A stretch of DNA of 64,000 nt from Nocardioides seonyuensis (GTDB lineage Bacteria > Actinomycetota > Actinomycetes > Propionibacteriales > Nocardioidaceae): positions 3,224,001-3,288,000 of the forward strand of contig NZ_CP038436.1 in NCBI RefSeq assembly GCF_004683965.1. Reading direction: 5' to 3'. Below are positions 9,689 through 40,846 of the stretch, piece by piece; the stretch's first letter is position 1; every line of letters starts with the position of its first letter. The notes under the pieces are model-generated. The model was not told where the DNA came from. It did no database searches and saw nothing but the letters and a program-made list of their open reading frames with translations. The position numbers were made by a program, and so were the translations under genes.

Positions 9689-9704
9689 TCAGATGTCGTA
9701 GTAG
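9689..9704. other. attL core, copy of glnA 3' end
   Basis: TCAGATGTCGTAGTAG, identical to 40831-40846, where it encodes the last four residues and stop of glutamine synthetase on the minus strand. Element sequence to the right keeps patchy similarity to glnA (CGAAACTC against CGAACTC). This makes an open minus-strand frame (9689-10024) end in a glnA-like YYDI; I do not count that frame as a gene. Confidence 0.85.
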
Positions 9705-9742
9705 CACCGAAACTCCACTCGTGCTGATGGCGGATTCCCGCT

Positions 9743-9842
9743 GTTTGCGCAGGTCAGAACCGCATTGTGCCAGGTTCCGTTGCCGTCACAATCGGTTTCG
9801 TAGCCGTCTGTGAAGACACGTTTCGGGGGAAACTCGGGGGAA
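9743..9842. other. Left-end putative integrase arm sites
   Basis: GTTTGCGCAGGTCAGA (9743-9758) matches 40795-40810 in 15 of 16 bases, same orientation. Two CGGGGGAA boxes follow at 9824 and 9835 (11 bp apart), matching the pair at 40758 and 40768. They lie inside the element beside attL. Beyond them, up to 10030, I see no gene. Confidence 0.6.
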
Positions 9843-10030
9843 GACCGCCGACTGTCACCCCCCAGCCAGTGCGGCGAGGCTCCCACCCTCGAGCACCGAG
9901 CGGACGGACGAGGACCCTGCCGTTGCGGGACGGCCGAGGTCTGCCGTCCAGACCAAACCGCGGTCCTGCTGTCAGGCGCCAGCACGAGGAGGGTCAGGCG
10001 CCACGTCAGGGGCGCCACACGCAAGTGCAG

Positions 10031-11776
10031 CTAGCGGCGGCCGGGCACGTCGATGGTCGAACGGGAGACTGCGGGTTGGACGAGGTCGGTACCGCGGTAG
10101 CGCACGACCAGCGGCTTCGTGCCAGAGCCCAGCTTGCGCACGACCAGTCGGGCGCGTCCGTGGGTGAGCTGCCCCTCGACGACCCGTCCGCCGATTCGCA
10201 CCGACACCACGCCTTCCGGTCGGCGTACGCCGGGAGCGCGCACACGCACGTCGACAGCGACGCGTCCGCGGCGTGCGTCGGAGCGGACCCGCATGGTGGG
10301 AACTGTCGTGATCGAAGCCGACAGCGGAACGGTGTCGGTGGTGGCACGGAAGTTCCGTTGGGTCAAGGTGACTTCGACTGCGAGGCTCCGACCGACGTCC
10401 TTGCGCCGGAGGGTGTACCTCCCGTTCCTGGCCTTGGCGATGGGTTGTCCGTCTCGTAGCCACCGGTAGGTGGCGGAGGCGTTGCTCGGCCGTACGACGC
10501 CCGGCCGGGCGACCAGGGTGCGCCCCACCTCGGCTCGGCCCGTGATCGAGAACGGCCGGGTGATCGTGACGGGCTTGGCCAGGACGGGCCCGGTCTCCAC
10601 CGCGTCCGAGATCGACTTCCGGTAGCCCTTCGCGGTCCCGGTGACGCGCGCGCTGATGCGGCTGCCGACGTGGTCCCGGGTGAGCACGAGGGTCGTCCCG
10701 TTCTCGCCCCGGAGCGGAGCTCCATCGGCGAACCACTGCGTCTTGGTCCTGGCTGGCTGTGGCGACCAGGAGGGCGCGCTGAGCGTCAGCGTCTGGCCCA
10801 CCTCCGGGTTTCCCTGGATGGCTGGGAGCCCGGCGGCCTGAAGGAGGCCGGGGGCCACGGCCTCGGTCGTCAGGACAGCCACTCCCGGGGAGTAGCCCTC
10901 GAGGGCGGCAGTGACTTCGACGGCGAGTGCCTGGCCCTTGACCTCGGGGGTGGGTACGTAGGTCGTGCTGGTGGCGCCGGGGATCGCGACCCCGTCGGCG
11001 AGCCACTGGAGCGCGACCTGGGTGGGTGCGGGGGACCACGTCCCTGTCGACACCTCGACTGGAGCCCCCACGACGGGCGCTCCGGCGATCGCCGGTGCGG
11101 TCGTCGCCTCGACCGCGCGATCGTTGAAGTGGATGAAGCCTCTGGGCCAGCCCGACCCGGTCTGGGTGATGCGCCGCCAGTGGAAGTCGCCGCCCCAGTA
11201 GTCCTCCGAGACGATGATCTCGGTGGGGGAGATGACCTGCTCCACGTAGGCGACGTGTCCGGCAGGTCCGGCGGGGGAGACGTTGGCCGGGTACCACGCC
11301 ACGGAGCCGACCCGCGGGACCTGGTCCATGAGGGAAGCCATCTCCACGCCCCAGTGGCGCGCGTTGCCACCTCCGTCCCACGGGCGACTGTTCGGCATGC
11401 CGTTCTGGATCAGCCGGTAGGCGACGTAGTTGGTGCAGTTGTGCCCTGCGTACATGCGCCAGTACATCGTCGAGGATGCCTGTTTGTAGCCGGCGTGGGT
11501 GTAGCCCGCCGCCTGGCACTCCGCGTACCCCGTGCACAGGTAGGTCGATCCGCTCAGGCTGACCTTCACCATTGACTGGGGGAGTGCCAGCAACGCGACG
11601 ACCGTCAGCAGCGCAAGCCAGGTCGTGCTCCGGACAACGCGGCGCCCGATGCATAGCGTGCTCGACCAGGCGTTGAGTGACGCTTGTGACTGCAGGGACA
11701 ACTGTGGCTCATGGGGCACGATGAGAGAGCCTATGAGCCGTTCGTCAAGCGCGCCACGCCGATGAAGGAAGAACAA
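10031..11776 (-). CDS. Secreted CHAP-domain protein with Ig-like repeats
   Basis: The frame gives 581 residues; the true start is unsure and may be nearer the hydrophobic segment at 51-68, which looks like a signal or anchor helix. A CHAP amidase/peptidase domain follows (about 80-220): Cys114 in HNCTNYVAYRL, His174 in GHVAYVE, and an acidic third position in IIVSEDYWGG. Three immunoglobulin-like repeats come next (about 226-310, 320-400, 405-490), each with the pattern VG-x-P/T-L-x-V, W-x-P and an aromatic pair. A basic all-beta tail ends the protein. CHAP enzymes cut peptidoglycan; the repeats probably hold it at the cell surface. First gene inside the left end of the island and its only evident non-metal cargo. 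Confidence 0.8.
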   Translation of the reverse strand: MFFLHRRGALDERLIGSLIVPHEPQLSLQSQASLNAWSSTLCIGRRVVRSTTWLALLTVVALLALPQSMVKVSLSGSTYLCTGYAECQAAGYTHAGYKQASSTMYWRMYAGHNCTNYVAYRLIQNGMPNSRPWDGGGNARHWGVEMASLMDQVPRVGSVAWYPANVSPAGPAGHVAYVEQVISPTEIIVSEDYWGGDFHWRRITQTGSGWPRGFIHFNDRAVEATTAPAIAGAPVVGAPVEVSTGTWSPAPTQVALQWLADGVAIPGATSTTYVPTPEVKGQALAVEVTAALEGYSPGVAVLTTEAVAPGLLQAAGLPAIQGNPEVGQTLTLSAPSWSPQPARTKTQWFADGAPLRGENGTTLVLTRDHVGSRISARVTGTAKGYRKSISDAVETGPVLAKPVTITRPFSITGRAEVGRTLVARPGVVRPSNASATYRWLRDGQPIAKARNGRYTLRRKDVGRSLAVEVTLTQRNFRATTDTVPLSASITTVPTMRVRSDARRGRVAVDVRVRAPGVRRPEGVVSVRIGGRVVEGQLTHGRARLVVRKLGSGTKPLVVRYRGTDLVQPAVSRSTIDVPGRR

Positions 11777-12729: not shown

Positions 12730-13377
12730 ATGCTCAGCAAGACCAGGACCCGCACGCGCGCCCTCGGCGCCCTCGCGCTCACCCTCACCCTCGGCGCCGG
12801 CCTCTCCGCCTGCGGAGACGACACCGACGCCGGCGGTGCCGGCGGCTCGGCCGAGGTGAGCACCACCGAGCACAACGACGCCGACGTCACCTTCGCCAGC
12901 GACATGATCACCCACCACGCCCAAGCACTGTCGATGGTCGACCTGACCCTCGACCGGCCCTTGGACCCGGAGGTCCAGGCGCTCGCCGAAGACATCCGGG
13001 CCGCGCAGGGCCCGGAGATCGAGACGATGGCGGACTGGCTCACCGAGTGGGACGAGGAAGTGCCGGAAACCATGCGCGATCACGCCAACGCCGGCCACGA
13101 CATGGGCGACATGTCGGACACCATGGACGACATGGGCCACAGCGACATGCCGGGCATGATGACCTCCGAGGACATGGACGCCCTCGAGAACGCCTCCGAC
13201 GAGGAGTTCCAGGACATGTGGCTCGAGATGATGGTCGAGCACCACGAGGGGGCAGTCGAGATGGCCGAGACCGAGCAGGAGGACGGTCAGTTCAAGGACG
13301 CCGTCGAGCTCGCCGGCCAGATCATCGACGCCCAGAACAAGGAAATCGAGACCATGAACGGCCTTCTGGACTCCTGA
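12730..13377 (+). CDS. DUF305 lipoprotein, Met/His-rich
   Basis: A 215-residue lipoprotein. The signal peptide ends in the lipobox LSAC at residues about 24-27. Two DUF305 half-repeats follow. The first has FASDMITHHAQALSMVDL and EIETMADWL; the second has EMMVEHHEGAVEMAETE and KEIETMNGLL. Between them is an Asp/Met/His-rich insert (HDMGDMSDTMDDMGHSDM). DUF305 is a four-helix ferritin-like fold with paired HH and M residues that suit copper binding. It is probably anchored outside the membrane as a copper-buffering protein. One of three DUF305 genes in the island; preceded by a GGAG site. Confidence 0.85.
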   Translation: MLSKTRTRTRALGALALTLTLGAGLSACGDDTDAGGAGGSAEVSTTEHNDADVTFASDMITHHAQALSMVDLTLDRPLDPEVQALAEDIRAAQGPEIETMADWLTEWDEEVPETMRDHANAGHDMGDMSDTMDDMGHSDMPGMMTSEDMDALENASDEEFQDMWLEMMVEHHEGAVEMAETEQEDGQFKDAVELAGQIIDAQNKEIETMNGLLDS

Positions 13378-15271: not shown

Positions 15272-16495
15272 TCAGTGACCGCTCTCGTGGCCCTCCTCGT
15301 GCCCATCACCCATCTCGTCGTCAGGCCCTCCTGGCGCATCGGGGACATCGAGTGTGACGTTGTCGCGTTCGGCGTCCAACGCGAGCGAGGAGAAGCTCAC
15401 ACCGTTGGGCTTGTCGCCCACAGGAATTCTGGCCACGACCTTGAGTTCGTCGAGGTCGAGGACTGCGACGTCATCCCCATAGATGTTCGTGATGTAGGCG
15501 TGCCGGCTCGAGGGGTCGATGACGATGCCGTGGGAGCCCTGGCCGGTCTCCACCTCGGCCTTTACGGTGAACGTCTTGGTGTCGATGACAGACACCGTGG
15601 TCCCGGGCGAGTCCTCGGTGCCTTGATTGGCGACGAGGAGGTAGCGGTTGTCGCCGCTGACGTAGGTCTGGATGGGTCCGTCTCCGACAGCGACCGTGTC
15701 GACCAACTCGCGCGTCGTCATGTCGACCTTGGCCACGGCGTCCGCGCCGTTCAGGGAGGCGTAGACGAACCGGCCGTCGGGGGAGAAGGCGACCTGGGCG
15801 GGCGCATTCCCTACTTCGACGTCTGTGACCAGCCGGTTGTTCCTCGTGTCGATGACGCTGAGCGTGGTGTCGGCGACGTTCGCCACAACGAGCCAGCGGC
15901 CGTCCGGGCTGGGTCGGAGGCCGTGCGGGCCCTGGCCCACCTCGACGGTGCTGATGGCCTTCATGGTGGAGGTGTCGATGACCGAGACGGTGTTGTCTGC
16001 GCCGTTCGAGGTGTACGCCGTGGACCCGTCGGGTGAGACCACGACGTGGGCTGGTGCGGAGCCGGTCGGAACCACGCCGTGCAGGTCCAGGCTTTCAGCG
16101 GACAGCATCGCGGCGTATCCGTCGTGGCCGCTCACTGTCCACACCGACGCGCCGTCGGGAGCTACCTGCACGTTGTGTGGTCCCTCGACGCCGGCGACGG
16201 TGGTCGCGACCCGGTTGGTGGCGGCGTCGATCGCCGTGAGGGAGCCGCCTCCCTCGTTGGCGATCCAGACGGTGCCCTCCACCATGCCGCGGTGGCTCGC
16301 GAGGCCTGCCTCGGTCGGGTCCTCGTCTGCGCCGCCGTCGTTGTCGTTGAGCGCGGCAAGTCCACCCATTGCGGCGAGCGTGGCCAGGGCACCTGCGGAC
16401 AGTGCAGCCACGCGCATCCGTCGACTCCGCTCGTGGCGGTCATTCGGGGGCCGGGTAGTGGTCGTGTGGGGATCGGTGCCGGAGGTTGAGCTCAT
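15272..16495 (-). CDS. YVTN-type beta-propeller, membrane-anchored
   Basis: 407 residues. A basic N-terminus and one helix (MRVAALSAGALATLAAMGGLAAL, about 27-49) anchor it. Then come about seven repeats of the YVTN type, with signatures such as NNRLVTDVEVGNAPAQVAFSPDG and NTVSVIDTSTMKAISTVEVG. The tail (GDGHEEGHESGH) is His-rich, which suits metal binding. Similar propellers accompany secreted copper proteins and may act as periplasmic or surface binding scaffolds. Its promoter region contains one of the five TGAAG-N6-TGAAG repeats (16586). Confidence 0.82.
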   Translation of the reverse strand: MSSTSGTDPHTTTTRPPNDRHERSRRMRVAALSAGALATLAAMGGLAALNDNDGGADEDPTEAGLASHRGMVEGTVWIANEGGGSLTAIDAATNRVATTVAGVEGPHNVQVAPDGASVWTVSGHDGYAAMLSAESLDLHGVVPTGSAPAHVVVSPDGSTAYTSNGADNTVSVIDTSTMKAISTVEVGQGPHGLRPSPDGRWLVVANVADTTLSVIDTRNNRLVTDVEVGNAPAQVAFSPDGRFVYASLNGADAVAKVDMTTRELVDTVAVGDGPIQTYVSGDNRYLLVANQGTEDSPGTTVSVIDTKTFTVKAEVETGQGSHGIVIDPSSRHAYITNIYGDDVAVLDLDELKVVARIPVGDKPNGVSFSSLALDAERDNVTLDVPDAPGGPDDEMGDGHEEGHESGH

Positions 16496-16638: not shown

Positions 16639-17604
16639 TCAGCTCGAGGTTGGCTCTTGGGGCAGGACGCTCTCGATGGACGTCGCCGGTGGAGCGAACC
16701 GATCCGGCTGGGTGAGGAACTCCCGTCGGCACGCGTCTGAGCAGAACCACCACTGCTGTCCGCCCCAATCGGCGTGGGGTCCGTTCGGTTCGACCTGCAT
16801 GCGACAGACCGGGTCCACAGCGAGGGCGGCGAGGTGGCGGAAATGCCCGTCCTCCAACCAGAGCACGCGATCGGCGATCTCCCGGAGTCGATCGTCGTGG
16901 CTGACGATGATGATCGAGCGGCGGTCCTCGTCGGCTAGCTGGCGAAGCAGTCGGGCGAGGTCTCGGCCGCGGGATGCGTCGAGGTTGGCGGTGGGTTCGT
17001 CCGCGAGCAGAACGGGTGGGTCGTTGGCGAGCGCACGTGCCACGGCGACTCGCTGTTGTTCGCCACCGGACATCTGAGAGGGCCGTGCCGCTGCCCGGTG
17101 CGCAAGGCCCACGCGGTCGAGCAGGTTGCGGGCGCGCTGGCGCGCGGGGAGGCCCTTGACCCCGGCCAGGTTGGCAGCAACGGCGATGTTCTCGGTGGCG
17201 GTGAGCGCGTCGAGCAGGGCGTAGTCCTGGAAGATGAACCCGAAGGTGCGCGACCGCAGCGCGGGGAGCTCCTTTTCACGCGCCGCGGCGATGTCCACTT
17301 CGACGCCGTCACGGGTGGTGACGGTGATGGAGCCTGCGCTCGGCCGCAGCAGTGCGCCGAGCATCAGCAGGAGGGTGGTCTTGCCCGATCCGGACGGTCC
17401 CATCACGAGGAGCACCTCGCCGGAGGCGAGGTCGAGATCGACCGCTCGCACGGCGTCTACGGCGATATCGCCTGACCGGTAGGTCTTTGTGAGCCCTCGA
17501 ACGGTCAGCACTCCGGGCCTGTTCGAATGGCTCGGGGGCCCGCTGCCGCCGGGTGACGAAAGCACCGGGGCGGTGCCGGGGGTGGAGTGCGCGTTGCTGT
17601 TCAT
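16639..17604 (-). CDS. ABC ATPase fused to a C-terminal YHS metal domain
   Basis: 321 residues. The first 240 form a LolD/MacB-type ATPase: Walker A GPSGSGKTTLL, Q-loop FIFQDYALLD, signature MSGGEQQRVAVARAL, Walker B VLLADEPTANLD, switch His in IIVSHDD. It ends with a YHS domain (about 262-305): DPVCRM, then WWFCSDACRREF, three Cys in the arrangement that binds Cu, Zn or other soft metals. Such a fusion is unusual and suggests that transport responds to, or receives, metal. It is coupled by ATGA overlap to two FtsX-like permeases upstream. Confidence 0.88.
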   Translation of the reverse strand: MNSNAHSTPGTAPVLSSPGGSGPPSHSNRPGVLTVRGLTKTYRSGDIAVDAVRAVDLDLASGEVLLVMGPSGSGKTTLLLMLGALLRPSAGSITVTTRDGVEVDIAAAREKELPALRSRTFGFIFQDYALLDALTATENIAVAANLAGVKGLPARQRARNLLDRVGLAHRAAARPSQMSGGEQQRVAVARALANDPPVLLADEPTANLDASRGRDLARLLRQLADEDRRSIIIVSHDDRLREIADRVLWLEDGHFRHLAALAVDPVCRMQVEPNGPHADWGGQQWWFCSDACRREFLTQPDRFAPPATSIESVLPQEPTSS

Positions 17605-18773
17605 CGTGTCTCCCGGAAGGCGGTTGCCGCGTCGAGGGACGCAATGCGGCGCAGCGGCCACAGGGCGGCGATGAGGCCGACCAGGAGCGCTGTGCTGGTG
17701 GTCTGTGCGATGGCGGCGGTGGTGATGGAGATCTGGACCGCTGGCGCGGCGAGTGGCAGCAACCACGCGAGCGCCAGCGCGGCGGTGGTGGCGACGGCGG
17801 AGGCGAGTACGACGGTGAGTAGGACCTGCATCGCCACCGCTGCCGCGAGCCGAGGTATCCGGGCGCCGAGGGCCTTGAGGACGGCGAAGTCCCGCAGTCT
17901 GTTCAAGGTGGCCGTCATCAGCCCGAGGGCAATGACGGCGAGCGCGATAACGAGACCGATGCTGGACATCAGCCGGAGCAGGTCGGCGCTCATGTCGGTG
18001 ACGATGCGGGCCTCGGAGTCGGCGAATTGCTCGCGGGACTGCGCCGTGACCCCGGTGATCTCGGCCTCGATCCGGTCCGCGACCGTTTGTGCGTCGGCGC
18101 CTGGGTCCAGTCCGGTGAGGACGTACGAAACACGGGCGTCGTGGATTCGGGCGAACTCGCTGAGTTCGACGAAGACGGTGGTGTTGGTGATGCTGCTGCC
18201 GCCGGTGGAGAAGCCGACAGCGCGCAGGGACGTGCCCATGACCGTGAACCGGTCGCCGAGCTGGATTCCGAGCTGGTTGGCTGCCTGCTCGTCCAGGATG
18301 GCTTCGCCGGCGATGGGTGTGCGGCCGGCCACGAGCCGTGTGGCGCCGCCCCGGCTGGTGGGGGCGTCGTAGCCGATGAGGTAGGACAACTGCCGGCCCT
18401 GTGGCCCGGCCACCGAGCCTGAGGCGAACGCGATTGGAGAGGCCCAGGCAACTCCCGGTAGGTCGGCTACGCGCTCGGGGGTGTCCGCAGGCAGGGACGA
18501 GGCGGACATGTGCATGGTGCGCACGCCTTCCTGGGAGACGAACACGTCGGCCGGGGAGGTGCGGATGTAGTAGGTGACCCGGTCGACGGCTCCAGCGAAG
18601 ATGCCGCCGAGGACGAGGACCAGCAGCAGGGATGCGGCCACGCCGAGAACGGTCAGCGTGGCACGGCGGCGGTCGGCGAACAGGAAGCGGCGCCCCACGG
18701 GAACGGCTCGCTCCGCGAGGGCGCGTCGTGGGTGATCGGATGGCCGCCGAGTGGGGTGCATGGTGGTGGTCAT
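17601..18773 (-). CDS. FtsX-like ABC permease B
   Basis: 390 residues. One N-terminal helix (TLTVLGVAASLLLVLVLGGIFAGA), a roughly 200-residue extracytoplasmic domain (SPADVFVSQEG onwards), then three C-terminal helices containing the FtsX/MacB core NRLRDFAVLKALGA. It overlaps the preceding permease and the following ATPase by ATGA at both ends. I took the ATG at 18773; a longer frame to 18920 has no ribosome site and runs inside permease A. It probably forms a heterodimeric permease with 18770-19891, moving a lipid, peptide or metal-linked substrate across the membrane. Confidence 0.85.
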   Translation of the reverse strand: MTTTMHPTRRPSDHPRRALAERAVPVGRRFLFADRRRATLTVLGVAASLLLVLVLGGIFAGAVDRVTYYIRTSPADVFVSQEGVRTMHMSASSLPADTPERVADLPGVAWASPIAFASGSVAGPQGRQLSYLIGYDAPTSRGGATRLVAGRTPIAGEAILDEQAANQLGIQLGDRFTVMGTSLRAVGFSTGGSSITNTTVFVELSEFARIHDARVSYVLTGLDPGADAQTVADRIEAEITGVTAQSREQFADSEARIVTDMSADLLRLMSSIGLVIALAVIALGLMTATLNRLRDFAVLKALGARIPRLAAAVAMQVLLTVVLASAVATTAALALAWLLPLAAPAVQISITTAAIAQTTSTALLVGLIAALWPLRRIASLDAATAFRETR

Positions 18774-19891
18774 CGTCCGCTCCGGAATGCGGAGGCTGCG
18801 TCGAGCCCATTGAGTCGGCGTGCCGGGAGCCATGCGGCGAGCAGCGCCATCGTGGCCGCTGCGGCGGCGGTCTGGGCGATGGTGCCGGGGGTGAGCAGCA
18901 CCGGGAACGCGGGTCGCCACCAGGCGAGGAGCTCCCGGGTGATAACCAGCAGGACGATCGCGGCGAGCGTGCCGAGCACCGTGAGGGCCACGGTCTCCGT
19001 CACCGCGATTCGGCGAAGCCGGCCGGGGGTGGCGCCGAGGGCCTTGAGGACGCCCAGGTCCCGCTCTTGCTCGGTGACCCGGGTGTAGGCCACGAGCGCG
19101 ACGATCAGGGCGCCGGCTGCGAAAGCCACGCCCACCATGAGTCGCACCGGCAAGCCGTAGATGTCGGTAGCCAGCCGCAGCGACGCCTCGCGCAGTTCGG
19201 CAGGATTGCGCACGGTGTACCCCTCGTCACGCAGCTGCGCTGCGACGTCATCGGGGTCCTCGGTCGTGACCAGCACCGCCCCGGTGGTGCCGGTAGCCCG
19301 CAGCATCTCGTCCATCCCGGCCGTGGTGGTGAACAGCAGCGGGGTCATGAACAGGGCGGTGTCGTCGGTGAGGCCGACCACCCGCATCGGGTGTCCGAGG
19401 ATGGGCAGCCGATCGCCGAGGGTGAAGTCGTGCTGCTCGGCCCACAAAGCATCGACGGCCACCTCGTCGACGACTTCTGGGGCACGGCCGTCGGCGAAGG
19501 CCCACGGGCCGCCGAGACCGCTGCCGGGGTCATAGGCGACCGCGGCGACGGCAGCCTTGCCGTGGGACAGCTCCAGGATCTGATACATGGTGCGCAGCGG
19601 CGCGGCGTGTGTCACTCCCGGGATCCGGGAGATCGTCGCGACCGTCGGCGCGGGTAGAGCGCCGGGGTCGGCGAAGAGGTTGCGCGTTCCGGCGGGCACC
19701 ACGACCAGGTCAGCGCCGAGGTGGTCGTCGTAGGTAGTGACGCGGTCCTGGACGCCGACCCAGAGTCCGGCAAGCAGGAGCATCAGCATCAGGGCGAGCC
19801 CGATCCCGGCTGCGCCAGCCCCGGTGCGGACCGGGCGCGTCGTGAGGAACCGGCGGGTGACCGGGACCGAGGCTCTAACCCGGGTCTTCAT
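18770..19891 (-). CDS. FtsX-like ABC permease A
   Basis: 373 residues with the same plan as its neighbour: one helix after a basic N-terminus (GAAGIGLALMLMLLLAGLWVGV), a large outside domain (ADLVVVPAGTRNLFADPG), then three helices with the core EQERDLGVLKALGATPGRLRR. First gene of the permease A-permease B-ATPase/YHS transcript. DevC/MacB-like systems of this design do mechanotransmission or lipoprotein release rather than simple uptake. The substrate is not evident. Copper-island context suggests a role in envelope stress or metal export (inference). Confidence 0.85.
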   Translation of the reverse strand: MKTRVRASVPVTRRFLTTRPVRTGAGAAGIGLALMLMLLLAGLWVGVQDRVTTYDDHLGADLVVVPAGTRNLFADPGALPAPTVATISRIPGVTHAAPLRTMYQILELSHGKAAVAAVAYDPGSGLGGPWAFADGRAPEVVDEVAVDALWAEQHDFTLGDRLPILGHPMRVVGLTDDTALFMTPLLFTTTAGMDEMLRATGTTGAVLVTTEDPDDVAAQLRDEGYTVRNPAELREASLRLATDIYGLPVRLMVGVAFAAGALIVALVAYTRVTEQERDLGVLKALGATPGRLRRIAVTETVALTVLGTLAAIVLLVITRELLAWWRPAFPVLLTPGTIAQTAAAAATMALLAAWLPARRLNGLDAASAFRSGR

Positions 19892-27088: not shown

Positions 27089-27114
27089 CCGACCCGTTCA
27101 ACGAAGGAGTACTG

Positions 27115-29889: not shown

Positions 29890-32345
<2,456 letters not shown>

Positions 32346-32395: not shown

Positions 32396-33115
32396 TCAGC
32401 GCTGTGCCAAGCCCAGATGAGGGAGGGCCAGCACGAGGTCGAGGATCCCCAGTGCCGTCCACTGATCCTTTGGGGTGCCGGCGGCGGACCCCCCGAACTC
32501 CGGGACGGGGCGTTCGTCGGCCTCCGCCTTCGTGGTGGCCGGTCCGTTCTCCTCGATGTCCTGGACCAGCCAGTCCATCTCCTTGATCTCCTTGCGCTGC
32601 GCCGCCGCGATGCCGTCCGCCAGCTCGCGGACTCGAACGTCCTCGATCCCGGCTCTCTCGCTGGTCAGGATCGCGATCGAGTGGTGGGGGATCATCGCCT
32701 CCATGTAGCTCTCGTCATCGACGAGTGCCTGCGAGCGCGACAGGTACAGCGCAGTTCCACCGAGCACGATGGCGCCGAGGACGATGCCGATGTTCACCGC
32801 GCGGTTCCGGTACATCATTCCCCACATGAAGGCGAGCATGATCAGTGCCATCGCCGCGCCCATCAGGAGCGCCATGTACACGCGCTCCTCGCTGAAGCGG
32901 ACATGATCGGCACTGAACGCATTGGTGTACGTGAGCCCGAACATGACGACAGTGGACGTCGCGATCATGAGCCCGAAGCGCAGGTACATCTTCGCCTCGT
33001 GGTGTCCGCCCGACTCGCGGCCGTGGTCTCCGTTGTTGCTGTCTGCGGGCTCGGAATGTTCGCCGGCCCCGGGATGGCTGGCATTCTGTGGTTCCTTCTG
33101 CTGACGCTGGTTCAT
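32396..33115 (-). CDS. Membrane-bound DUF305 protein
   Basis: 239 residues from ATG 33115. A polar His/Glu-rich N-terminus (about 45 residues), then three helices (MYLRFGLMIATSTVVMFGL; VYMALLMGAAMALIMLAFMWGMMY; NIGIVLGAIVLGGTALYL), then half a DUF305 domain: EAMIPHHSIAILTSERAGIED and RKEIKEMDWL. Met and His residues are concentrated in the helices and the HH motif. Unlike the two secreted DUF305 proteins of the island, it keeps the binding domain next to a membrane bundle. Downstream of the second copper-storage gene, same strand. Confidence 0.82.
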   Translation of the reverse strand: MNQRQQKEPQNASHPGAGEHSEPADSNNGDHGRESGGHHEAKMYLRFGLMIATSTVVMFGLTYTNAFSADHVRFSEERVYMALLMGAAMALIMLAFMWGMMYRNRAVNIGIVLGAIVLGGTALYLSRSQALVDDESYMEAMIPHHSIAILTSERAGIEDVRVRELADGIAAAQRKEIKEMDWLVQDIEENGPATTKAEADERPVPEFGGSAAGTPKDQWTALGILDLVLALPHLGLAQR

Positions 33116-33202
33116 CTTGTCTTCCTCAGGATCGAAGTCGTTGCGGACAGGCGCGCACGGGATGACCGAACCGCTCGGATCCGGCCATCCCACGCGGCCG
33201 CG

Positions 33203-33610
33203 TTAGCCGATGGCGCTGAGGAGGCGGTTGCAGGCGTCCTCGCACCGCCGGCAGGCCTCGGCGCAGATCCGGCAGTGCTCGTGCATCTCGGCGTGCTGCT
33301 CGCACTCCTCGGCGCAGGACTTGCAGGCCTGAGCGCACGCCTGCAACACCGCCCGGGTGATGTTGGCGTCGTAGCCGGTGTGGCGTGACAGCACCCGGCC
33401 AGTCGCCTCGCAGATGTCGGCGCAGTCCGCGTTCGTGCGGATGCACTTGGTCAGTTCCGCGACCATCTCCTCGCTCAGACACGCATCGGCGCACGCCGTG
33501 CACGCCTGAGCGCACTCCACGCATGCTTCGACACATTGCGCCAGGAGTTCGCGGTCGGTGTTGATCTCCGCCGGGTAGGTCTTCATCATGTCGCTGATCG
33601 TGCTGGTCAT
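33203..33610 (-). CDS. Four-helix-bundle copper-storage protein, second copy
   Basis: 135 residues with 18 Cys in the same places as the protein at 14702-15106; the central part (RHTGYDAN, then HEHCRICAEACRRCE) is nearly identical. It begins MTSTISDMMKTYPAEIN with no export signal, so it is cytosolic. Two such paralogues in one island suggest different expression or copper capacity. It starts the 33610-32396 gene pair with the membrane DUF305 protein. Confidence 0.9.
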   Translation of the reverse strand: MTSTISDMMKTYPAEINTDRELLAQCVEACVECAQACTACADACLSEEMVAELTKCIRTNADCADICEATGRVLSRHTGYDANITRAVLQACAQACKSCAEECEQHAEMHEHCRICAEACRRCEDACNRLLSAIG

Positions 33611-34169: not shown

Positions 34170-35405
34170 TGCATGACCTATACCCCGATCGGCTCTGGGC
34201 CATACCATCCGTGCCGGACTCTTCGCTGGGGCGGCGCTCGGCTATGACCGTCGTCTGCGTGCGTCAGCGTGTCGTCGTGAGAGTCCCACGCGAGGAACGC
34301 CGGACACTCCCACGAGAACCCGCATGAGATAGGTGGCGACAGGGTGTCGATACGGACTGTCTGCTGCATGAACACCTCCACTCCCACTGACACCACAAGC
34401 CGTAGTGACCGCGTTCGAGGATTCCGTCAGTTGCTGGAGGATCTCGCGGCAGTGTCGGACGGAGCATTCGAAGGAACTGAAGTCGGCGCGCTTCCGCCCG
34501 TCGTCGTCACCGTACGCGTCCACGTTCGCAGGGCTGAGGAGCTAGACGTGGGCGGCGCGAGCGGACGCACGTAGGCGGGGGAGCCCCGAGTGTGCTGCAG
34601 GTGTGCGACCTGTCGCGCATGGGCAGAACCTCCGGGCCTGCTCCGGAAGGTCCGGAGGATGTGTGTGATTGATTGCGTGGGGCAACTGACGCCACACCAT
34701 GCGTCGGGACGACTCCACCGGGGAGTCACTCGCAGAAGGCACGCCGCATGACTCTCTTCACCGATCGCTCCGTGTACAGCCCGCTGGCGGACAAGCTGCC
34801 ACAGCTGCGGCCGCGCTACATCGACGTGGCGCGCTACTCAAAGGCGGGAGAGGGGGGAGTAGCGGGCCAACGGAGCGCTCACTTCTCGCGCTACGCCGAG
34901 GATCCCGACATCCAAGAGCTTCGCCGCATCCCTGAGGCGGCCTGGGATCCGAAGCAACCGGAAGTGGGAGCTTTGCATCGCATCACGTGGCGATGGGGTC
35001 GGGTCGGAGCTCCAGCCGGCCCATACGGGCGGACACCCGCACTCCTGCTGAAGTGGCGACACCTCGGCGGGGCCTGTACGACGGTCTCATCTGCACCGTC
35101 GTTGCCGACGCAGACGGCTACTCCCTCGTCGAGATGTGGGCCGAGGCTGGCCTCTTGGCCCCGCGTAGCCCGGCGCGGCGCTATCAAGACTTCGCCAGCC
35201 AGTCACCGACACGCTGGACTGAGCCACCGTCACAGCCGGCGGAACGGAGTGGCTCTGCCTTCCGACGAGTCGACGAACGTGTAGTGGGTGGCATGGGCGA
35301 CCAGGCCCGAACACGGCAGGAACTCCCCTGAGGACGCCAATGCGTGCGTACCGCCGTCCACCCGGGGACGACACCGACGTTTCGGTGCGCTAACATCGCC
35401 GAACT
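34170..35405. other. 1.2-kb stretch with only weak or broken gene candidates
   Basis: Two plus-strand frames deserve mention. One (34368-34574) encodes 68 residues, mostly polar, with no clear ribosome site. The other (34748-35284) starts MTLFTDRSVYSPLADKLPQL and reads as protein for about 75 residues, but a different frame downstream (around 35060-35200) reads LYDGLICTVVADADGYSLVEM. Together they look like a gene broken by one or more frameshifts near 34990-35060. The rest, including the region before the ArsR-type gene at 35406, shows no recognisable feature. Confidence 0.4.
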
Positions 35406-35798
35406 ATGATGCCAACTACCGATGATGCTGCCGCTACTGCACCGCCCGCGTCCCTCGAACGCGCGGGCCTTGACGCTGCCGCCTGCCTCTTCCACGGCCT
35501 CAGCGACCGGAACCGGCTCATCATCCTCCGCCACCTCGCCCTTGGTGAGCACCGCGTCGTCGACCTGATGGCGCACCTCGGGCTCGCCCAGTCGACGGTG
35601 TCCAAGCACCTCGCCTGTCTCAAGGACTGCGGCCTGGTCGACTCCCGCCCCCAGGGCCGCGCGTCTCTGTTCTCTCTCACCCACCCCGAAGCCGTGCTCG
35701 ACCTGCTCGCCACCGCCGAGCAGCTCCTCGCTCTGACCGGTGACGCGGTCACGCTGTGCCCCAACTTCGGCACCGACACACTCCTCACGGACGCCTGA
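35406..35798 (+). CDS. CmtR-like ArsR-family Cd/Pb sensor
   Basis: 130 residues. A winged-helix core (HGLSDRNRLIILRHLALGEHRVVDLMAHLGLAQSTVSKHLACLKDCGLV) ends in the metal site typical of CmtR: Cys71 and Cys75 in HLACLKDCG, plus Cys118 near the C-terminus (VTLCPNFG), equivalent to the Cys57/61/102 set of mycobacterial CmtR for Cd(II) and Pb(II). Binding of metal releases the DNA. The next gene begins inside its stop (TGATG), so it heads a four-gene transcript of metal exporters. Confidence 0.92.
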   Translation: MMPTTDDAAATAPPASLERAGLDAAACLFHGLSDRNRLIILRHLALGEHRVVDLMAHLGLAQSTVSKHLACLKDCGLVDSRPQGRASLFSLTHPEAVLDLLATAEQLLALTGDAVTLCPNFGTDTLLTDA

Positions 35799-36592
35799 TG
35801 ACCGCCCACGTGCACGCCCCTGCCGCGCTGACGCTTCAGGACAAGGCGCGCCTCGGTCGCCGTGCCCAGCTGCTCGCCGGCGCGTCGGTGACCTACAACC
35901 TCATCGAGGCGGTCATCGCCATCTCCGCCGGCATCATCGCCGGGTCGGTCGCGCTCGTCGGGTTCGGACTCGACTCGATCGTCGAGGTCTCCAGCGGGCT
36001 CATCATCTTGTGGCAGTTCCGCCACCGGCTCCCCGAGTCCCGCGAACAGCAGGCGCTCCGGCTGATGGCGCTGTCGTTCTTCGCGCTCGCCGCCTACGTC
36101 ACCTTCGAGTCAGTCCGGGCACTCTTGGGCGACCACGACCCCGACACATCAACGGTGGGCATCGCGTTGGCTGCAGCGTCGCTGGTCATCATGCCGTTCC
36201 TATCCTGGGCCCAGCGCCGCACCGGCAAGGCCCTCGGCTCCAATGCGGTTGTCGCCGACTCCACGCAGACCCTGCTGTGCACCTACCTGTCCGCAGTCCT
36301 GCTCGTCGGGCTGGTCCTCAACGCCACCCTCGGCTGGTCATGGGCCGACCCCATCGCGGGGCTCATCATCGCCGCCGTCGCGGTCAAGGAGGGCCGCGAG
36401 GCCTGGCGCGGAGAGGGCTGCTGCGCGCCCATGGCCTCGTCCGCTCACGACCACGGCGACGCTGCTTCCGGGTGCGGCTGCGCCGGCGGCACGTGCACCG
36501 ACGGCTGCTGCACACCCGCCGACCAGACCGCCGAGACAGCGCCGGCACCCGAGGTGTTCCAGATCGGCCGCCCGGGCGGTGAGGACCGATGA
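35798..36592 (+). CDS. CDF-family efflux protein with Cys-rich tail
   Basis: 264 residues. Six helices with CDF signatures: ASVTYNLIEAVIAISAGIIAGS, VGFGLDSIVEVSSGLI (the D in helix II), and NAVVADSTQTLLCTYLSA (helix V, D-x3-T). Instead of the usual cytosolic dimer domain it ends in a 60-residue Cys/His tail: EGCCAPMASSAHDHG, GCGCAGGTCTDGCC. The tail has at least eight Cys. It may trap Cd, Pb or Zn before transport. Cotranscribed with the CmtR-type sensor. Confidence 0.85.
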   Translation: MTAHVHAPAALTLQDKARLGRRAQLLAGASVTYNLIEAVIAISAGIIAGSVALVGFGLDSIVEVSSGLIILWQFRHRLPESREQQALRLMALSFFALAAYVTFESVRALLGDHDPDTSTVGIALAAASLVIMPFLSWAQRRTGKALGSNAVVADSTQTLLCTYLSAVLLVGLVLNATLGWSWADPIAGLIIAAVAVKEGREAWRGEGCCAPMASSAHDHGDAASGCGCAGGTCTDGCCTPADQTAETAPAPEVFQIGRPGGEDR

Positions 36593-37251
36593 CGGGCACG
36601 ACGCCCGCGGTCCTGGGGCTGGGCTTCTACGCGGTCTACCTCGGTGTCGGGTTCGGCCTGCGCACGTGGGTGCAGTGGCGCCGTACCGGTGACTCCGGCT
36701 GGCGAGGCATCTCCGGTCGCTTCGGCTCCCCGGAGTGGTGGGCCGGAGTTTTGTTCACCGTCGCGCTCATCGCCGGAGTCCTCGGGCCCGTCACCGCCCT
36801 GCTCGGACTCGACCCGGTCGCAGCCCTCGACGCAGCCCCTGCCCAGCTGCTCGGCGTCTCGGCGGCTCTCGCCGGCATCGCGGCGACCTTCGCCACCCAA
36901 CTCGCCATGGGCACTAGCTGGCGCATCGGCGTCGACGAGACCGAATCCACCGACCTCGTCACCACCGGTCCGTTCGCGCTGGTCCGCAACCCCATCTTCA
37001 CCGCCATGGCCACCACCGGACTCGGCCTCGGGCTCATGGTCCCCAACCTCGTCGCGCTCCTCGGGTTCGTCCTGCTCCTCGTGGCACTGCAGCTACAGGT
37101 CCGCGTCGTCGAAGAGCCCTACCTGCTGCGTGCCCACGGCCAGTCCTACGCCACGTACGCGGCCACCGTCGGCCGGTTCATCCCCGGACTGGGGCACCTC
37201 CCGGCCGCACCCGCTGCCGACCGGCGCCGGCCGACGCAGGAAGCCGTCTGA
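36589..37251 (+). CDS. Isoprenylcysteine-methyltransferase-like membrane protein
   Basis: 220 residues, five helices, of the ICMT/PEMT type. The conserved C-terminal S-adenosylmethionine region is present: LVTTGPFALVRNPIFTAMATTGLGLGL and VRVVEEPYLLRAHGQSYATYAATVGRFIPGLG, with the family's RxPxY-like and E-E-P-x-L patterns. ATGA overlap with the CDF gene before and one-base overlap with the CDF gene after. Such methyltransferase-like proteins often accompany cation exporters; the substrate is unknown and may be a lipid or a thiol-metal adduct (inference). Confidence 0.82.
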   Translation: MTGTTPAVLGLGFYAVYLGVGFGLRTWVQWRRTGDSGWRGISGRFGSPEWWAGVLFTVALIAGVLGPVTALLGLDPVAALDAAPAQLLGVSAALAGIAATFATQLAMGTSWRIGVDETESTDLVTTGPFALVRNPIFTAMATTGLGLGLMVPNLVALLGFVLLLVALQLQVRVVEEPYLLRAHGQSYATYAATVGRFIPGLGHLPAAPAADRRRPTQEAV

Positions 37252-38159
37252 TGGGCGCTGGACAGAGCCACGGCCCCGCGGCTGGGCATGCCGGCGGCCG
37301 GCACCGCTGGCGCCTCGCCGTCTCCTTCGGCCTCATCGCCGTGTTCTTCGTCGTCGAGCTCACCTACGGCCTGCTGTCCGGGTCTCTTGCACTGCTCTCT
37401 GATGCCGGGCACATGGCCGCCGACGTCGTCGCCCTGGGTGCTGCGCTCGTCGCCACCCGCATCGCCACCCGACGTGACACCACCGGACGCCGCACCTACG
37501 GGTCCTACCGTGCCGAGGTCTTCGCCTCCGGTCTGGCCGTTCTCCTGATGCTGGGTGTCGCTGTGTACGTGGTGGTCGAATCCGTCGGCCGCATCGGTGA
37601 GAACGTCACGGTCGAGACCGGCCCGATGCTCGTCGTCGGTGCGCTCGGCCTGCTCGTCAACGTCATCGCGATGGTGCTGCTGCGCGGCGGCGCCGCCGAG
37701 AGCCTCAACGTCAAGGGCGCCTACCTCGAAGTCGTGGCCGACACCGCCGGCTCGGTTGGCGTCATCGCTGCCGGCCTCCTCGTCGCGGCCACCGGCGAGT
37801 CCTACTGGGACACCTTGGTGGCGCTGGCCATCGGCACGTTCGTTGCCGTGCGTGCGGTCATGCTCGGCCGCGAAGTCCTCGCCGTCCTCGGCCAGCACGT
37901 CCCCGCCGGGATGGAGCTGGACAACGTCACCGCCGACCTCGAGGCCATCGACGGCGTCGACGACGTCCACGACCTCCACGTGTGGACCCTCACCTCCGGC
38001 ATGCACGTCGCCACCGCCCACCTCGTCGCCCGCGACACCACCGCAACCTCTGTCCTCACCGAGGCGCGACGGGTGCTGCGCACCGACCACGGCATCGAGC
38101 ACGCCACCTTGCAGGTCGAAGCAGCAGCCGACAACGGCTGCCAAGAGCTCGACTGGTAG
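37251..38159 (+). CDS. CDF-family zinc/cadmium exporter (CzcD/ZitB-like)
   Basis: 302 residues, full-length CDF. The N-terminus has a His motif (GQSHGPAAGHAGGRHRW). Helix II carries HxxxD (LSDAGHMAADVVAL) and helix V HxxxD-like EVVADTAGSVGVI; ZitB usually has HxxxD in both, so the second site is altered (EVVAD). The cytosolic domain has VDDVHDLHVWTLTSGMHVATAHLV, with the family's metal-bridging His. Fourth gene of the cmtR transcript. Exports Zn(II) or Cd(II) in exchange for protons. Confidence 0.92.
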   Translation: MGAGQSHGPAAGHAGGRHRWRLAVSFGLIAVFFVVELTYGLLSGSLALLSDAGHMAADVVALGAALVATRIATRRDTTGRRTYGSYRAEVFASGLAVLLMLGVAVYVVVESVGRIGENVTVETGPMLVVGALGLLVNVIAMVLLRGGAAESLNVKGAYLEVVADTAGSVGVIAAGLLVAATGESYWDTLVALAIGTFVAVRAVMLGREVLAVLGQHVPAGMELDNVTADLEAIDGVDDVHDLHVWTLTSGMHVATAHLVARDTTATSVLTEARRVLRTDHGIEHATLQVEAAADNGCQELDW

Positions 38160-38203
38160 CGGACCGGGCCGACCGTCACTCAGCGTCGGCACCAGCCACG
38201 CCG

Positions 38204-38213
38204 CCCCTAGGGG
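38204..38213. promoter_or_regulatory. CCCCTAGGGG palindrome, possible second CsoR-like site
   Basis: A perfect 10-bp palindrome with the CsoR core, 90 bp before the DUF305 gene at 38303. The outer TA and GTA bases of the full operator (26735) are missing, so binding is doubtful. Confidence 0.35.
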
Positions 38214-38302
38214 ACCCTTCTGAGCAGGGCGCGGGACGTTCGCCTCTGGTCATCGCTTCCCGCCGAGCGCACGGTGGAGGGAGCGAACCTTGGAGGTTTG
38301 AG

Positions 38303-39067
38303 ATGAGACGCCCTGTTGTGTGGCTCGTGGCCGTCGTGACGGTGCTCCTGGTAGGGGCAACCACGGCTGTCGCAGTGAACCTTGCGGACAACGATGACCG
38401 ATGGTCCGGTCCCGGCGGCGCAATGATGATGTCTGACCGGGACGACCGGCCCCATCGAAACTGGCAGCCGGGTGGGGACGGAACTGGACCGATGATGCCC
38501 GGCATGCACGGGGTACGAGTGAGCAGCGAGAACGCCTACCTGGCCGAGATGGTCGCTCACCACGAAGAAGCGGTAGCGGCGGCACGAGAGCTGCGGCGCT
38601 CACCGCTCGCGAAGATGCGTGAGTTCGGTGCCGCCATCGTCACCTCACAGTCCACCCAGATCGACCAGATGCAGCAGTGGCTGGCCGACTGGTACCCGAA
38701 CCGGACCGAGCAACCGGACTATGAGCCGATGATGCGAGACCTGACCGGCCTGTCCGGCCAGCGACTGGACCAGGTGTTCTTGCAGGACATGACCTGGCAC
38801 CACATGGCAGCGGTGATGATGTCGCAGCGGCTGCTGGCGCGGGGACTGGCCCAGCATGACGAGGTCGCGGCGCTAGCTCGAACCATCCGCAACGAACAGC
38901 ACGACGAGATCGTTGAGATGCGCCGGTGGCTGCGAGACTGGTTCGGGGCTGACTGGCATCACGGCCCACGCGATGGCGGATGGCACGGAATGCACGGCAT
39001 GAGCGGCTCGCGTGGCGGCGGATGGAACGGCATGCACCCCATGGTCGGGCCGCGGATGATGGGGTAG
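38303..39067 (+). CDS. Secreted DUF305 protein, Met/His-rich tail
   Basis: 254 residues. An N-terminal helix (VVWLVAVVTVLLVGATTAVAV) serves as signal or anchor. Two DUF305 halves follow: YLAEMVAHHEEAVAAARELRR and QDMTWHHMAAVMMSQRLLARG, with EIVEMRRWLRDW. The C-terminus is an extra Gly/Met/His/Trp-rich tail (GGWHGMHGMSGS, GWNGMHPMVGPRMMG), likely a further copper-binding region. TGGAGG precedes the ATG at 38303. Third DUF305 gene of the island, just inside the integrase. Confidence 0.87.
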   Translation: MRRPVVWLVAVVTVLLVGATTAVAVNLADNDDRWSGPGGAMMMSDRDDRPHRNWQPGGDGTGPMMPGMHGVRVSSENAYLAEMVAHHEEAVAAARELRRSPLAKMREFGAAIVTSQSTQIDQMQQWLADWYPNRTEQPDYEPMMRDLTGLSGQRLDQVFLQDMTWHHMAAVMMSQRLLARGLAQHDEVAALARTIRNEQHDEIVEMRRWLRDWFGADWHHGPRDGGWHGMHGMSGSRGGGWNGMHPMVGPRMMG

Positions 39068-39341: not shown

Positions 39342-40700
39342 TCACTGCCTAGCGAACAGCGCTAGTCCACGTTGGGTGTGCTCGCGGCCGGTGCGGTAGT
39401 AGCGGTGCAGCACGGTGAGCTCGTTCTCCCACCCGCCCAGTGCCATCAGGACCCCGGGGTCGGCTCCGTACAAGTCGATGGCAACCCGCGCGAACCGGTG
39501 GCGGAGCGAGTGCCATGGCATCACCGCCAGAGTTCGGGTCCGGGTCCGGGTCGTGTAGCTCTCGTTACGCGCGTCCCAGACGTCCCGCTCCTCTTCCCAG
39601 ACGCGGAGCGGCCATCCAGCTTCCTCCATCGCGCACCTCAACACGTAGGCCTCGAACGCCGAATGCCACCAGATGCCACCGCGCGGCGCTGGGAACAGCA
39701 GGGCGTCGGGGTTGACGCCGGAGTGCTGCTCAGCCCGCACTGCCTCCAGGCGCGAAACAACCATTGCTTTCAACCGGGTACCCGTGAAGGACTCGGTCGG
39801 CAGGGGCGCGATCCGGGTCTTGTCGCCCTTCGGTCGGGCGCGTCGTCCGTTCGGGCAGTTCGCTGGCGCGCCCGGGTCGACGGCCCAGTCGATGTGGAAG
39901 TGGGGTTGCTGGGCCTCTTCGCACCCGTCGAGATGGACGTCCGGGGCGCGCAGCTGGAACTGCTCACCCCAGCGTGGCCCGCAGTTCGCGGCGAGCTCGG
40001 GCGCGAGGGCGCCCCAAGGGCCCGCCAACCGCTCGAGCGCGGCGGAGAGCGCCCGGACCTGGGCGGCGGAAGGGGCGTCTTCCTCGTGAACGTACTCATC
40101 CGCTTGCCCTACCCGACGCGCCCGGGTCCGTCGCGTCGGTGCCTGGGTGCCCTTCACCGCGGGTGCCGGCATGACGACCCGAGGGGGAAGTAGCTCGGCT
40201 TGGGCGATGGTGAAGAAGCTGGGGGAGTGGCGGTAGCCCCAGAGCAGGAACGCTCGCAGCGCCGTGGTGTTGATCCGGACCATGTGCGGTGTCCCTGCTT
40301 CGGCGCGCATCCGGTCGAGCACCTCGCGGGTGACGTCCATGGCTGCGACGTGAGCGTGTCCGCGCAGGGCACGGCCAAGGTTGTCCTCGATCTGGATACG
40401 GGTCGATCGCTTCCAACGCCGGCCTGTGTACGGGCTGCGTCCCTCGTCGAGGTACCTCGTGAAGAGCTCGCCCAGTGTGGCGGTGGCTTGGGGGCCGGCC
40501 GCCCGGGCGAGCCCGGCGGCGATGTCGGCCGCCTTGGCCCGTGCAGCGCCGAGGTCGCGCCCGCCCGAGGTGTCCGCGCGCCGTCCGTCGAGGCCGGTCC
40601 ACCGCAGCCTGAAGTAGCCGCTGGGCTTCGCGGGGGCGAACACGGCGACACCGCCCAACACCTCCACGGGGCGGCTCCGCGGTCCACCGCGGCCGCTCAC
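39342..40700 (-). CDS. Tyrosine recombinase (integrase) of the island
   Basis: 452 residues. The N-terminal arm-binding part (SGYFRLRWTGLDGRRADTSGG) and core-binding helices (LGELFTRYLDEGRSPYTGRRW) precede the catalytic domain. Catalytic residues visible: Arg243 in NCGPRWGEQFQL, Lys294 in GDKTRI, His397 and Arg400 in HSLRHRF, Trp424 in LGGWENE (in place of the usual His), and the nucleophile Tyr434 or Tyr435 in LHRYYRTG. GTG start at 40700 with GGGAGG 7 nt upstream. It reads away from attR; its promoter overlaps the putative arm sites, so it may repress itself. Confidence 0.92.
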   Translation of the reverse strand: MSGRGGPRSRPVEVLGGVAVFAPAKPSGYFRLRWTGLDGRRADTSGGRDLGAARAKAADIAAGLARAAGPQATATLGELFTRYLDEGRSPYTGRRWKRSTRIQIEDNLGRALRGHAHVAAMDVTREVLDRMRAEAGTPHMVRINTTALRAFLLWGYRHSPSFFTIAQAELLPPRVVMPAPAVKGTQAPTRRTRARRVGQADEYVHEEDAPSAAQVRALSAALERLAGPWGALAPELAANCGPRWGEQFQLRAPDVHLDGCEEAQQPHFHIDWAVDPGAPANCPNGRRARPKGDKTRIAPLPTESFTGTRLKAMVVSRLEAVRAEQHSGVNPDALLFPAPRGGIWWHSAFEAYVLRCAMEEAGWPLRVWEEERDVWDARNESYTTRTRTRTLAVMPWHSLRHRFARVAIDLYGADPGVLMALGGWENELTVLHRYYRTGREHTQRGLALFARQ

Positions 40701-40726
40701 AGCTGCCTCCCGGCACGCAGGCGCGC

Positions 40727-40810
40727 CGAAGCCCCCGCCCGTGGGCCGCCGGATCCTCGGGGGAATCCGGGGGAAACCCGGGCAGGGGCTTCGCGTTTGT
40801 GCAGGTCAGA
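40727..40810. other. Right-end arm sites inside a 15-bp inverted repeat
   Basis: CGAAGCCCCCGCCCG (40727-40741) pairs with CGGGCAGGGGCTTCG (40779-40793), 14 of 15 bases. Between them lie two CGGGGGAA boxes (40758, 40768), and just beyond is GTTTGTGCAGGTCAGA (40795-40810). The boxes and the 16-mer match the left end (9743-9842). The inverted repeat may also end transcription of glnA, whose old terminator is now 31 kb away. Confidence 0.6.
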
Positions 40811-40830
40811 GGCGGTGTCGCCCCTCTTGC

Positions 40831-40846
40831 TCAGATGTCGTAGTAG
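40831..40846. other. attR core within glnA 3' end
   Basis: TCAGATGTCGTAGTAG, the last four sense codons (Tyr-Tyr-Asp-Ile) and the TGA of glnA on the minus strand; identical to 9689-9704. Integration here leaves the glnA protein intact. Confidence 0.85.

Follow-up and report, generated by a model that had tools for sequence, protein, structure and literature searches.

A metal-gene island at the 3′ end of glnA in Nocardioides seonyuensis and its putative glnA-specific integrase

Islands mapped by TIGER/Islander lie in tRNA or tmRNA genes in 33.8% of cases and in coding sequences in 43.4% (PMC12424338); a protein-coding target as such is thus no rarity. The dusA-specific integrase family has one conserved protein-coding target and islands that share only the integrase (PMC4482086), and PAISt of Streptomyces turgidiscabies is a modular actinobacterial island with a tyrosine recombinase, a coding-gene 3′ end (bacA) as its target and several att copies (PMC4057263). 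Here we describe a locus akin to both, in a 64,000-nucleotide stretch of the Nocardioides seonyuensis chromosome (NZ_CP038436.1, positions 3,224,001–3,288,000; hereafter the window). It is a metal-gene island at the 3′ end of glnA, the glutamine synthetase gene, and we are highly confident in reading it as an integrative element put there by its own tyrosine recombinase, with the metal genes as cargo. A first-pass annotation of the window had thought a protein-coding target unusual beside tRNA genes; the survey figures above do not agree.

The differences from described systems are as clear as the likenesses. The dusA family uses the 5′ end of its gene, whereas the family described here uses the 3′ end of glnA, in actinobacteria. 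PAISt differs in its 8-bp palindromic crossover, its virulence genes, its bacA target and its nature as a 674-kb integrative and conjugative element (ICE). Actinomycete ICEs (AICEs) are likewise tyrosine recombinase elements of actinobacteria, but the vast majority of those with tyrosine integrases sit at the 3′ ends of tRNA genes, and AICEs carry genes for replication and DNA translocation, of which none was recognised in the island (PMC3218068). GInts resemble two relatives of the island, zg-1308 and G423, in having more than one recombinase gene at one end; some GInts also lie at gene 3′ ends and some favour the end of ssb, unlike the window island, which is at glnA with one integrase (PMC5385486).

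Attachment cores, flanks and arm sites

The last 16 bp of glnA, TCAGATGTCGTAGTAG on the plus strand, recur exactly 31,142 bp away, as the first-pass annotation had noticed (Table 1). This sequence is the reverse complement of the final glnA codons and stop, which are highly conserved among the relatives compared, and neither strand of the window holds a further copy. In the whole genome (3,974,362 bp, one contig) the 13-mer core TCAGATGTCGTAG has two sites, the two repeat copies, and its reversed control has none; a third core copy, as remnants of a second element in the left flank would leave, is absent. The integrase gene stands beside one of these two direct repeats of the target-gene end, the arrangement of a site-specific integrative island. 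No tRNA gene was found in the window or in the 11 integrase-family loci scanned.

The distal core appears to keep the flank that once abutted glnA. It is preceded by GCAGGTCAGCGAGACC and six bases, and two congeners, G002 and G020, have the identical 16-mer next to glnA with equal spacing. Over 24 bp (9665–9688) the flank matches the glnA-adjacent sequence at 19 positions in both congeners and at 18 in G056, from another family; none of 20,000 random 24-mers from the window reached 19 against the flanks of any of 56 relatives. The glnA-side flank, by comparison, reaches 13 of 24 at best, a score equalled by 4,478 of 20,000 random 24-mers. Joining the outer flanks in silico gives 58 of 64 matches to G002 and 57 to G020, against 44 for the real junction (40 of the 64 positions being glnA itself in both).

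Flank sequences were compared because few genes downstream of glnA are common to congeners, and gene synteny was rejected as empty-site evidence. In G002 the nearest predicted gene beside glnA encodes an alcohol dehydrogenase; in G020 it encodes a GmrSD-type protein. Homologues of the GNAT gene that neighbours the island are at best 46–48% identical and lie far from glnA, and the 20-kb loci of relatives contain only two GNAT-like matches (approximately 39%; 7.8 and 12.5 kb from glnA). The empty-site case therefore rests on flank sequence, not synteny. The first-pass annotation had proposed that removing the island joins the GNAT gene, a terminator and glnA into an ordinary pair: the terminator part is supported by a terminator-like hairpin (predicted fold of the 70-nt stretch 9576–9645, −34.8/−35.1 kcal/mol) and the junction by the flank matches; the GNAT gene is not conserved beside glnA in relatives. 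Its expectation that 9688 would abut 40831 in relatives has a probable counterpart in the similar G002 and G020 flanks, without synteny, and no relative compared has the same gene content across 9689 and 40831 without an empty site. Scans of the G002 and G020 20-kb loci, the first of which missed some integrases elsewhere, showed no integrase near glnA.

Paired motifs lie inside both island ends. In the window TTTGYGCAGGTCAG occurs only at 9744 and 40796, and CGGGGGAA five times, always on the plus strand: at 9824, 9835, 40758 and 40768, and at 6198 outside the island. Base composition alone would give an estimated five or so occurrences of CGGGGGAA over both strands of 64 kb; since the motif itself is not rare, the evidence lies in its paired placement at both ends and in conservation, with both arms retained in G423 and the right arm in zg-1308. 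We take these motifs to be candidate integrase arm sites.

The congener G423 (one contig) has an element with the same ends. Its glnA is at 3440934 and a second core at 3471037, 30,103 bp apart; an integrase 79% identical to that of the window stands at glnA, followed by a tandem second integrase (45% identical). Homology to the left end of the window element starts no more than 4 bp from the core and extends for 160–170 bp, across the arm motifs; the flanking sequences outside the element differ.

The integrase and its association with glnA

The integrase encoded at the glnA side is apparently a divergent but intact tyrosine recombinase. Pfam Phage_integrase scores it at 19.4 bits, under the cut-off of 27.1, and NCBIfam gives no match; PHROGs assigns it as integrase (E 1.9e-25). 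Scoring of 8,000 candidates gave 98 homologues, the nearest named ones from Nocardioides, and a profile built on 50 of the 98 matches four other glnA-side integrases (E 8.8e-6, probability 83%), the catalytic motifs RWGE, PKGDKTR, HSLRH, GGWEN and RYY each pairing with a counterpart. R232, K280 and R389 are invariant in the 50 homologues, and H386, W413 and Y423 at least 90% conserved; together they supply the R-K-H/x-R-H/W-Y set of tyrosine recombinases, and their catalytic role is predicted from alignment to integrases and general knowledge. The tyrosine recombinase that the first-pass annotation placed beside one repeat copy is thus confirmed by PHROGs and profile–profile comparison, Pfam being weak. 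No PDB sequence matched at E 0.01, and no relatives were found in viral contigs, phage records or plasmid collections.

A scan of genome contigs for relatives of the integrase yielded 10 loci. In eight, the integrase has an entire or almost entire glnA upstream (zg-1308, N. caldifontis, a Micrococcales metagenome-assembled genome (MAG), Mumia, an Actinomycetes MAG, Oerskovia and two Cellulomonas); in C. uda there is only a copy of the glnA tail, and in a Dermatophilaceae MAG neither. Genome searches that included our own genome found the integrase in 2 of 58 relatives, 8 of 391 genomes in the order and 11 of 215 in the genus, which added two members next to glnA (G423, G273) and two next to a copy of its tail (G442, G006) (G257, whose coordinates agree, is counted as the same genome as zg-1308). 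Fifteen family members, the window included, can therefore be seen in context: 11 at glnA, three at a tail copy and one at neither. With 14 of 15 so placed, the proposal to look for this integrase next to glnA in other actinobacteria is answered, and its homologues are not consistently at any other target. The integrases of G273 and G006 are broken.

More distant integrases, 28–33% identical, have no glnA in their loci (G078, G348, G296 and G261, with flanks of approximately 1.5 kb, and G434, with a 10-kb locus; the comparison excludes G476 and G425). In a tree of 20 integrases, which predates G423 and G442 and also omits G273 and G006, the glnA-linked members form a clade with 98/100 support, the Dermatophilaceae MAG nested inside. 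Paired cores, as in the window and G423, are 20,070 bp apart in G273, 16,447 bp in Mumia and 49,932 bp in G409, where a further core copy lies 9,145 bp beyond the pair; the second core of N. caldifontis is on another contig, and the Micrococcales MAG has one exact copy. The window integrase is 90% identical to that of zg-1308 and 55% to that of N. caldifontis, with GlnA at 81.6% and 89.0%, respectively. This disagreement between integrase and glnA histories is as expected for lateral transfer; at the DNA level the difference from zg-1308 is modest (87.6% for the integrase, 84.2% for glnA).

Several observations weigh against this reading. Of the two flank references, G020 may itself be occupied by an element, since a second copy of its core lies at a contig end and the GmrSD-type gene adjoins glnA; in G002 the core occurs once. 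Among the relatives compared there is no empty-site strain with otherwise identical flanks, and the left neighbours of the island are not conserved beside glnA. The closest relative, zg-1308, lacks a second exact core in its genome, with a three-mismatch candidate in the 40 kb examined. The integrase of the Dermatophilaceae MAG (L100, 43%) has no glnA in the 2.5 kb up to the contig end, and the 98 profile-search homologues carry no context and stand outside the 15-member count. Even so, it is very probable that the integrase family is specific for the conserved glnA end in several actinobacterial genera.

Other features of family members were noted in passing. In L100 (1–100), a gene end approximately 2.4 kb from the integrase also finishes in CGACATCTGA, a possible alternative site; the gene is presumably murA. 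A pair of Xer-like tyrosine recombinases (Pfam) lies inside the Mumia and G273 elements (L139 9795–11614, L140 12337–14713, L103 20103–21241), and similar sequence occurs approximately 9–10 kb from the C. triticagri integrase and was not found in the window. The G409 element (Actinomycetes MAG, L142 10825–20000), of the same family, has copper genes homologous to the window cargo. Two tandem integrases stand beside glnA in zg-1308 (L096 10001–12783) and G423 (L158 2113–4896), of which the window keeps the first kind only; N. salarius encodes the same two kinds. A GInt needs four genes, three recombinases and ginD, and the window, with its one integrase, has no such operon.

Cargo, backbone and alternative origins

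The window and G423 elements share only their ends, the integrase and one 663-bp stretch (blastn E 1e-5; tblastn). The cargo of G423 is of defence type (GmrSD, ResIII helicase, DNA methylase and others), unlike that of the window. Within the shared stretch, 81 codons (34748–34990) are 91% identical in amino acids to a 983-residue G423 protein (L159 3087–6038, minus strand); the gene is whole in G423 and truncated in the window, with metal genes on either side. The protein has no Pfam match and no PDB match at E 0.1. Its 34 homologues among 7,998 scored sequences are approximately 900–1,050 residues long, several from named Nocardioides.

We propose that the circular form of the element would contain the last bases of glnA within its attP, and that the island's own integrase would recombine attP with the chromosomal glnA 3′ end (attB), by a strand exchange that we infer. 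Integration would split the site into the glnA-side copy at 40831 and the distal copy at 9689, the element supplying its own glnA gene end, stop codon and hairpin, which would have left glnA intact. The metal genes would be cargo in an older glnA-element backbone that elsewhere carries defence-type cargo, as in G423. The parts of this scheme that can be read directly in the sequence are the repeat, the matching distal flank, the ends shared with G423, the family-wide link to glnA and the difference in cargo.

How the cargo arrived admits a refinement of this scheme, which we favour with moderate confidence: the metal genes did not enter with the integration but later overwrote a glnA element already in place. 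The backbone gene, whole in G423, breaks off at 34990 after 81 codons and is flanked by metal genes; stretches 60–90% identical to the metal ATPase block occur on 1,933 plasmid records (best-ranked Rhodococcus), none covering 80% of the query; and the two elements have so little else in common. Against such a mosaic stands the G409 element with its similar copper genes (CopA 73%, response regulator 64%, histidine kinase 42%, DUF305 44%), by which the copper genes may be older passengers of the integrase family.

That the segment between the repeats carries metal cargo, as first proposed, is borne out by Pfam and NCBIfam matches. We scanned 33 island open reading frames (ORFs) with Pfam; they were picked by a simple base-composition script, and small genes were possibly missed. 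The two P1B-type ATPases score over the cut-offs of both copper and cadmium subfamily models, copper higher, and are best read as copper pumps. The NCBIfam RicR and CopZ models are below their cut-offs for the repressor and metallochaperone, and the island has three DUF305 proteins in total.

A defective ICE or prophage is an unlikely alternative to a stand-alone integrative island, although ICEs and phages, too, use integrase modules of this sort. Pfam found no relaxase in the 33 ORFs, in agreement with the first-pass annotation, and no FtsK-type or other conjugation, replication or phage structural domain; the genes that mark an ICE, AICE or integrative and mobilizable element, or the virion genes of a prophage, are thus absent from the ORFs scanned, and no relative of the integrase was found in viral contigs, phage records or plasmids. 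Nor did a virion or conjugation module appear among 10 ORFs of Mumia and G273 and nine of G423, a minority of the genes of these elements. Still less credible, indeed very improbable, is a reading of the 9689 copy as a duplicate of the glnA end made by chance or by homologous recombination, in a segment without unitary origin: the core does lie inside conserved coding sequence and some genomes (G013, G055) have stray glnA-tail copies, but here the core pair is unique in the genome, with a glnA-type flank outside, element arms inside both ends and an integrase adjoining, and the ends shared with G423 refute it unless these are an assembly artefact.

The integrative element looks worn down in the window, with its backbone gene truncated and no excisionase-like gene found. 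Of 12 family members with a single integrase, the window not counted, 9 have a small excisionase-like gene (E only 0.0022 to the PHROG excisionase) close to it; the same search did not find this gene in C. triticagri or C. uda, and it was not found in G442, zg-1308 or G423 either. The window has no homologue at E 1e-4, only insignificant matches (E 0.3–0.5), no remnant of a second tandem integrase, and no Rfam match at gathering scores. Because neither an excisionase-like nor a transfer gene was recognised, the element is probably poorly mobile alone and would need help to move. Its present mobility and the metal phenotype of the island are both predictions from sequence.

Table 1 Features of the island and its borders in the window
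Feature	Coordinates	Strand	Basis or remark
Terminator-like hairpin, strong, bidirectional, between GNAT gene and glnA end	9595–9636		Predicted fold
Probable native chromosomal flank, abutting glnA before insertion; contains GCAGGTCAGCGAGACC	9665–9688		19 of 24 bp match G002 and G020
Distal attachment core, exact copy of glnA end	9689–9704		Exact repeat
Arm motif TTTGCGCAGGTCAG inside left end	9744–9757	+	TTTGYGCAGGTCAG occurrence in window
Putative integrase arm sites, CGGGGGAA twice, starts 11 bp apart	9824–9842	+	Conserved in G423
CHAP-domain protein near left end; Ig-like domains weak	10031–11719	−	Pfam
DUF305 protein	12730–13377	+	Pfam
YNCE/cytochrome D1-like β-propeller	15272–16495	−	Pfam
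ABC transporter: ATPase with YHS domain (16639–17451), MacB/FtsX permeases (17601–18698, 18770–19891)	16639–19891	−	Pfam
Two-component system: response regulator (22827–23510), histidine kinase (23507–24631)	22827–24631	+	Pfam, NCBIfam
DsbD/CcdA-like membrane protein (25051–26025), AhpC/TSA-type thioredoxin-like protein (26165–26671)	25051–26671	+	Pfam
CsoR/RicR-type metal repressor (26795–27088), CopZ-like metallochaperone (27280–27495)	26795–27495	+	Over Pfam cut-offs
Two P1B-type heavy-metal ATPases (27544–29889, 29886–32345)	27544–32345	+	Pfam, NCBIfam
DUF305 protein (32396–33115), DUF326/Csp1-like copper storage protein (33203–33610)	32396–33610	−	Pfam; Csp1 model below its cut-off
Backbone remnant: small ORF and first 81 codons of a gene for approximately 980 residues, cut at 34990	34328–34990	+	78.8% nucleotide identity to G423 element
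ArsR-type regulator, two CDF efflux proteins, PEMT/ICMT methyltransferase, DUF305 protein	35406–39067	+	Pfam
Tyrosine recombinase (integrase), 441 residues; longer start at 40700 possible	39342–40667	−	PHROGs, profile–profile, conserved residues
Putative integrase arm sites, CGGGGGAA twice, starts 10 bp apart, right end	40758–40775	+	Conserved in zg-1308 and G423
Arm motif TTTGTGCAGGTCAG at right end	40796–40809	+	Conserved in zg-1308; one base different in G423
glnA-side attachment core TCAGATGTCGTAGTAG	40831–40846		Exact repeat
glnA (glutamine synthetase), target gene; last codons and stop inside repeat	40831–42249	−	Sequence and homologues in relatives

The glnA end as a possible hotspot

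Integrases of other kinds also use this address. In 6 of the 35 congeners with loci (G032, G034, G006, G008, G027 and G033), another tyrosine integrase, or part of one, ends within 1.1 kb of the glnA stop; all but G006, whose fragment was placed by similarity, exceed the Pfam cut-off. They fall into two lineages, 27–29% identical. Five distal or tail copies (G034, G032, G006, G023 and G442) continue with TGACTGACTGACC one or two bases past the core, and since G006 and G442 have a window-family integrase beside such a copy, unlike elements have been stacked there. The glnA-side stop (TAA or TAG) differs from that of the distal copy (TGA) in G032, G034, G006, G027, G009 and G409, a pairing that is assumed in G006 and G009, where the copies are on different contigs, and in G032 and G034, where they are 171 and 114 kb apart; these differences fit stop codons supplied by the element. 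Other integrase lineages, stacked elements and differing stops therefore point to the glnA end as a shared hotspot. With glnE as the far-side marker, the glnE–glnA interval ranges from approximately 15 kb (G024) to approximately 274 kb (G003) among those of genomes G000–G036 that have both genes on one contig, and is approximately 113 kb in our genome; the hotspot may thus be very large.

Further copies of the glnA tail were seen in several genomes. G023 (L055, L147) has them 6.5 and 23 kb from glnA, G032 at C2 2274177 and G034 at C39 121034. Three of these four (the far copy of G023, and those of G032 and G034) are followed by TGACTGACTGACC and would be older or stacked elements of another integrase family. 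In G042 (L084 17500 and 18499, oriented) the core and 60 bp outside it are directly duplicated 999 bp apart, perhaps a simple duplication and no element. Copies far from glnA in the chromosome are at C1 4293164 in G013 and at C1 6051897 and 6141965 in G055.

A wider proposal, which we put forward tentatively, is that the glnA 3′ end is a phylum-wide actinobacterial hotspot for at least three tyrosine-integrase lineages. Its elements would form tandem stacks, alter the glnA stop codon and exchange metal, defence or other cargo on a common chassis. They would form a distinct class with an unclassified backbone protein of approximately 1,000 residues and, in some, an inner Xer-like pair or a tandem second integrase in place of the excisionase gene.

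The mechanism and kind of the island are ordinary: a site-specific island at a coding-gene 3′ end has its precedent in PAISt and bacA, and a gene-specific integrase family in dusA. What seems new is the glnA-specific integrase family and its hotspot, unreported in the literature searched. In the available portions, we found no mention of glnA in PMC5385486, PMC4482086, PMC12424338 or PMC4057263, mention in a metabolic context only in PMC11755657, and no mention of glutamine in PMC3218068 or PMC11706625. Among the papers listed by searches of open-access literature, none was recognised as dealing with a glnA integration target; a glnA entry in the TIGER database is possible.

glnA belongs to core nitrogen metabolism and is essential in several organisms (PMC2667176), and its highly conserved last codons make it a ready-made landing site in many actinobacteria. 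An integrase that reads glnA would explain the exchange of copper resistance or restriction systems between distant actinobacteria, and the glnA end would be a predictable address for finding such islands. An integrase with so conserved a target could also serve as an integration tool in poorly tractable actinobacteria.

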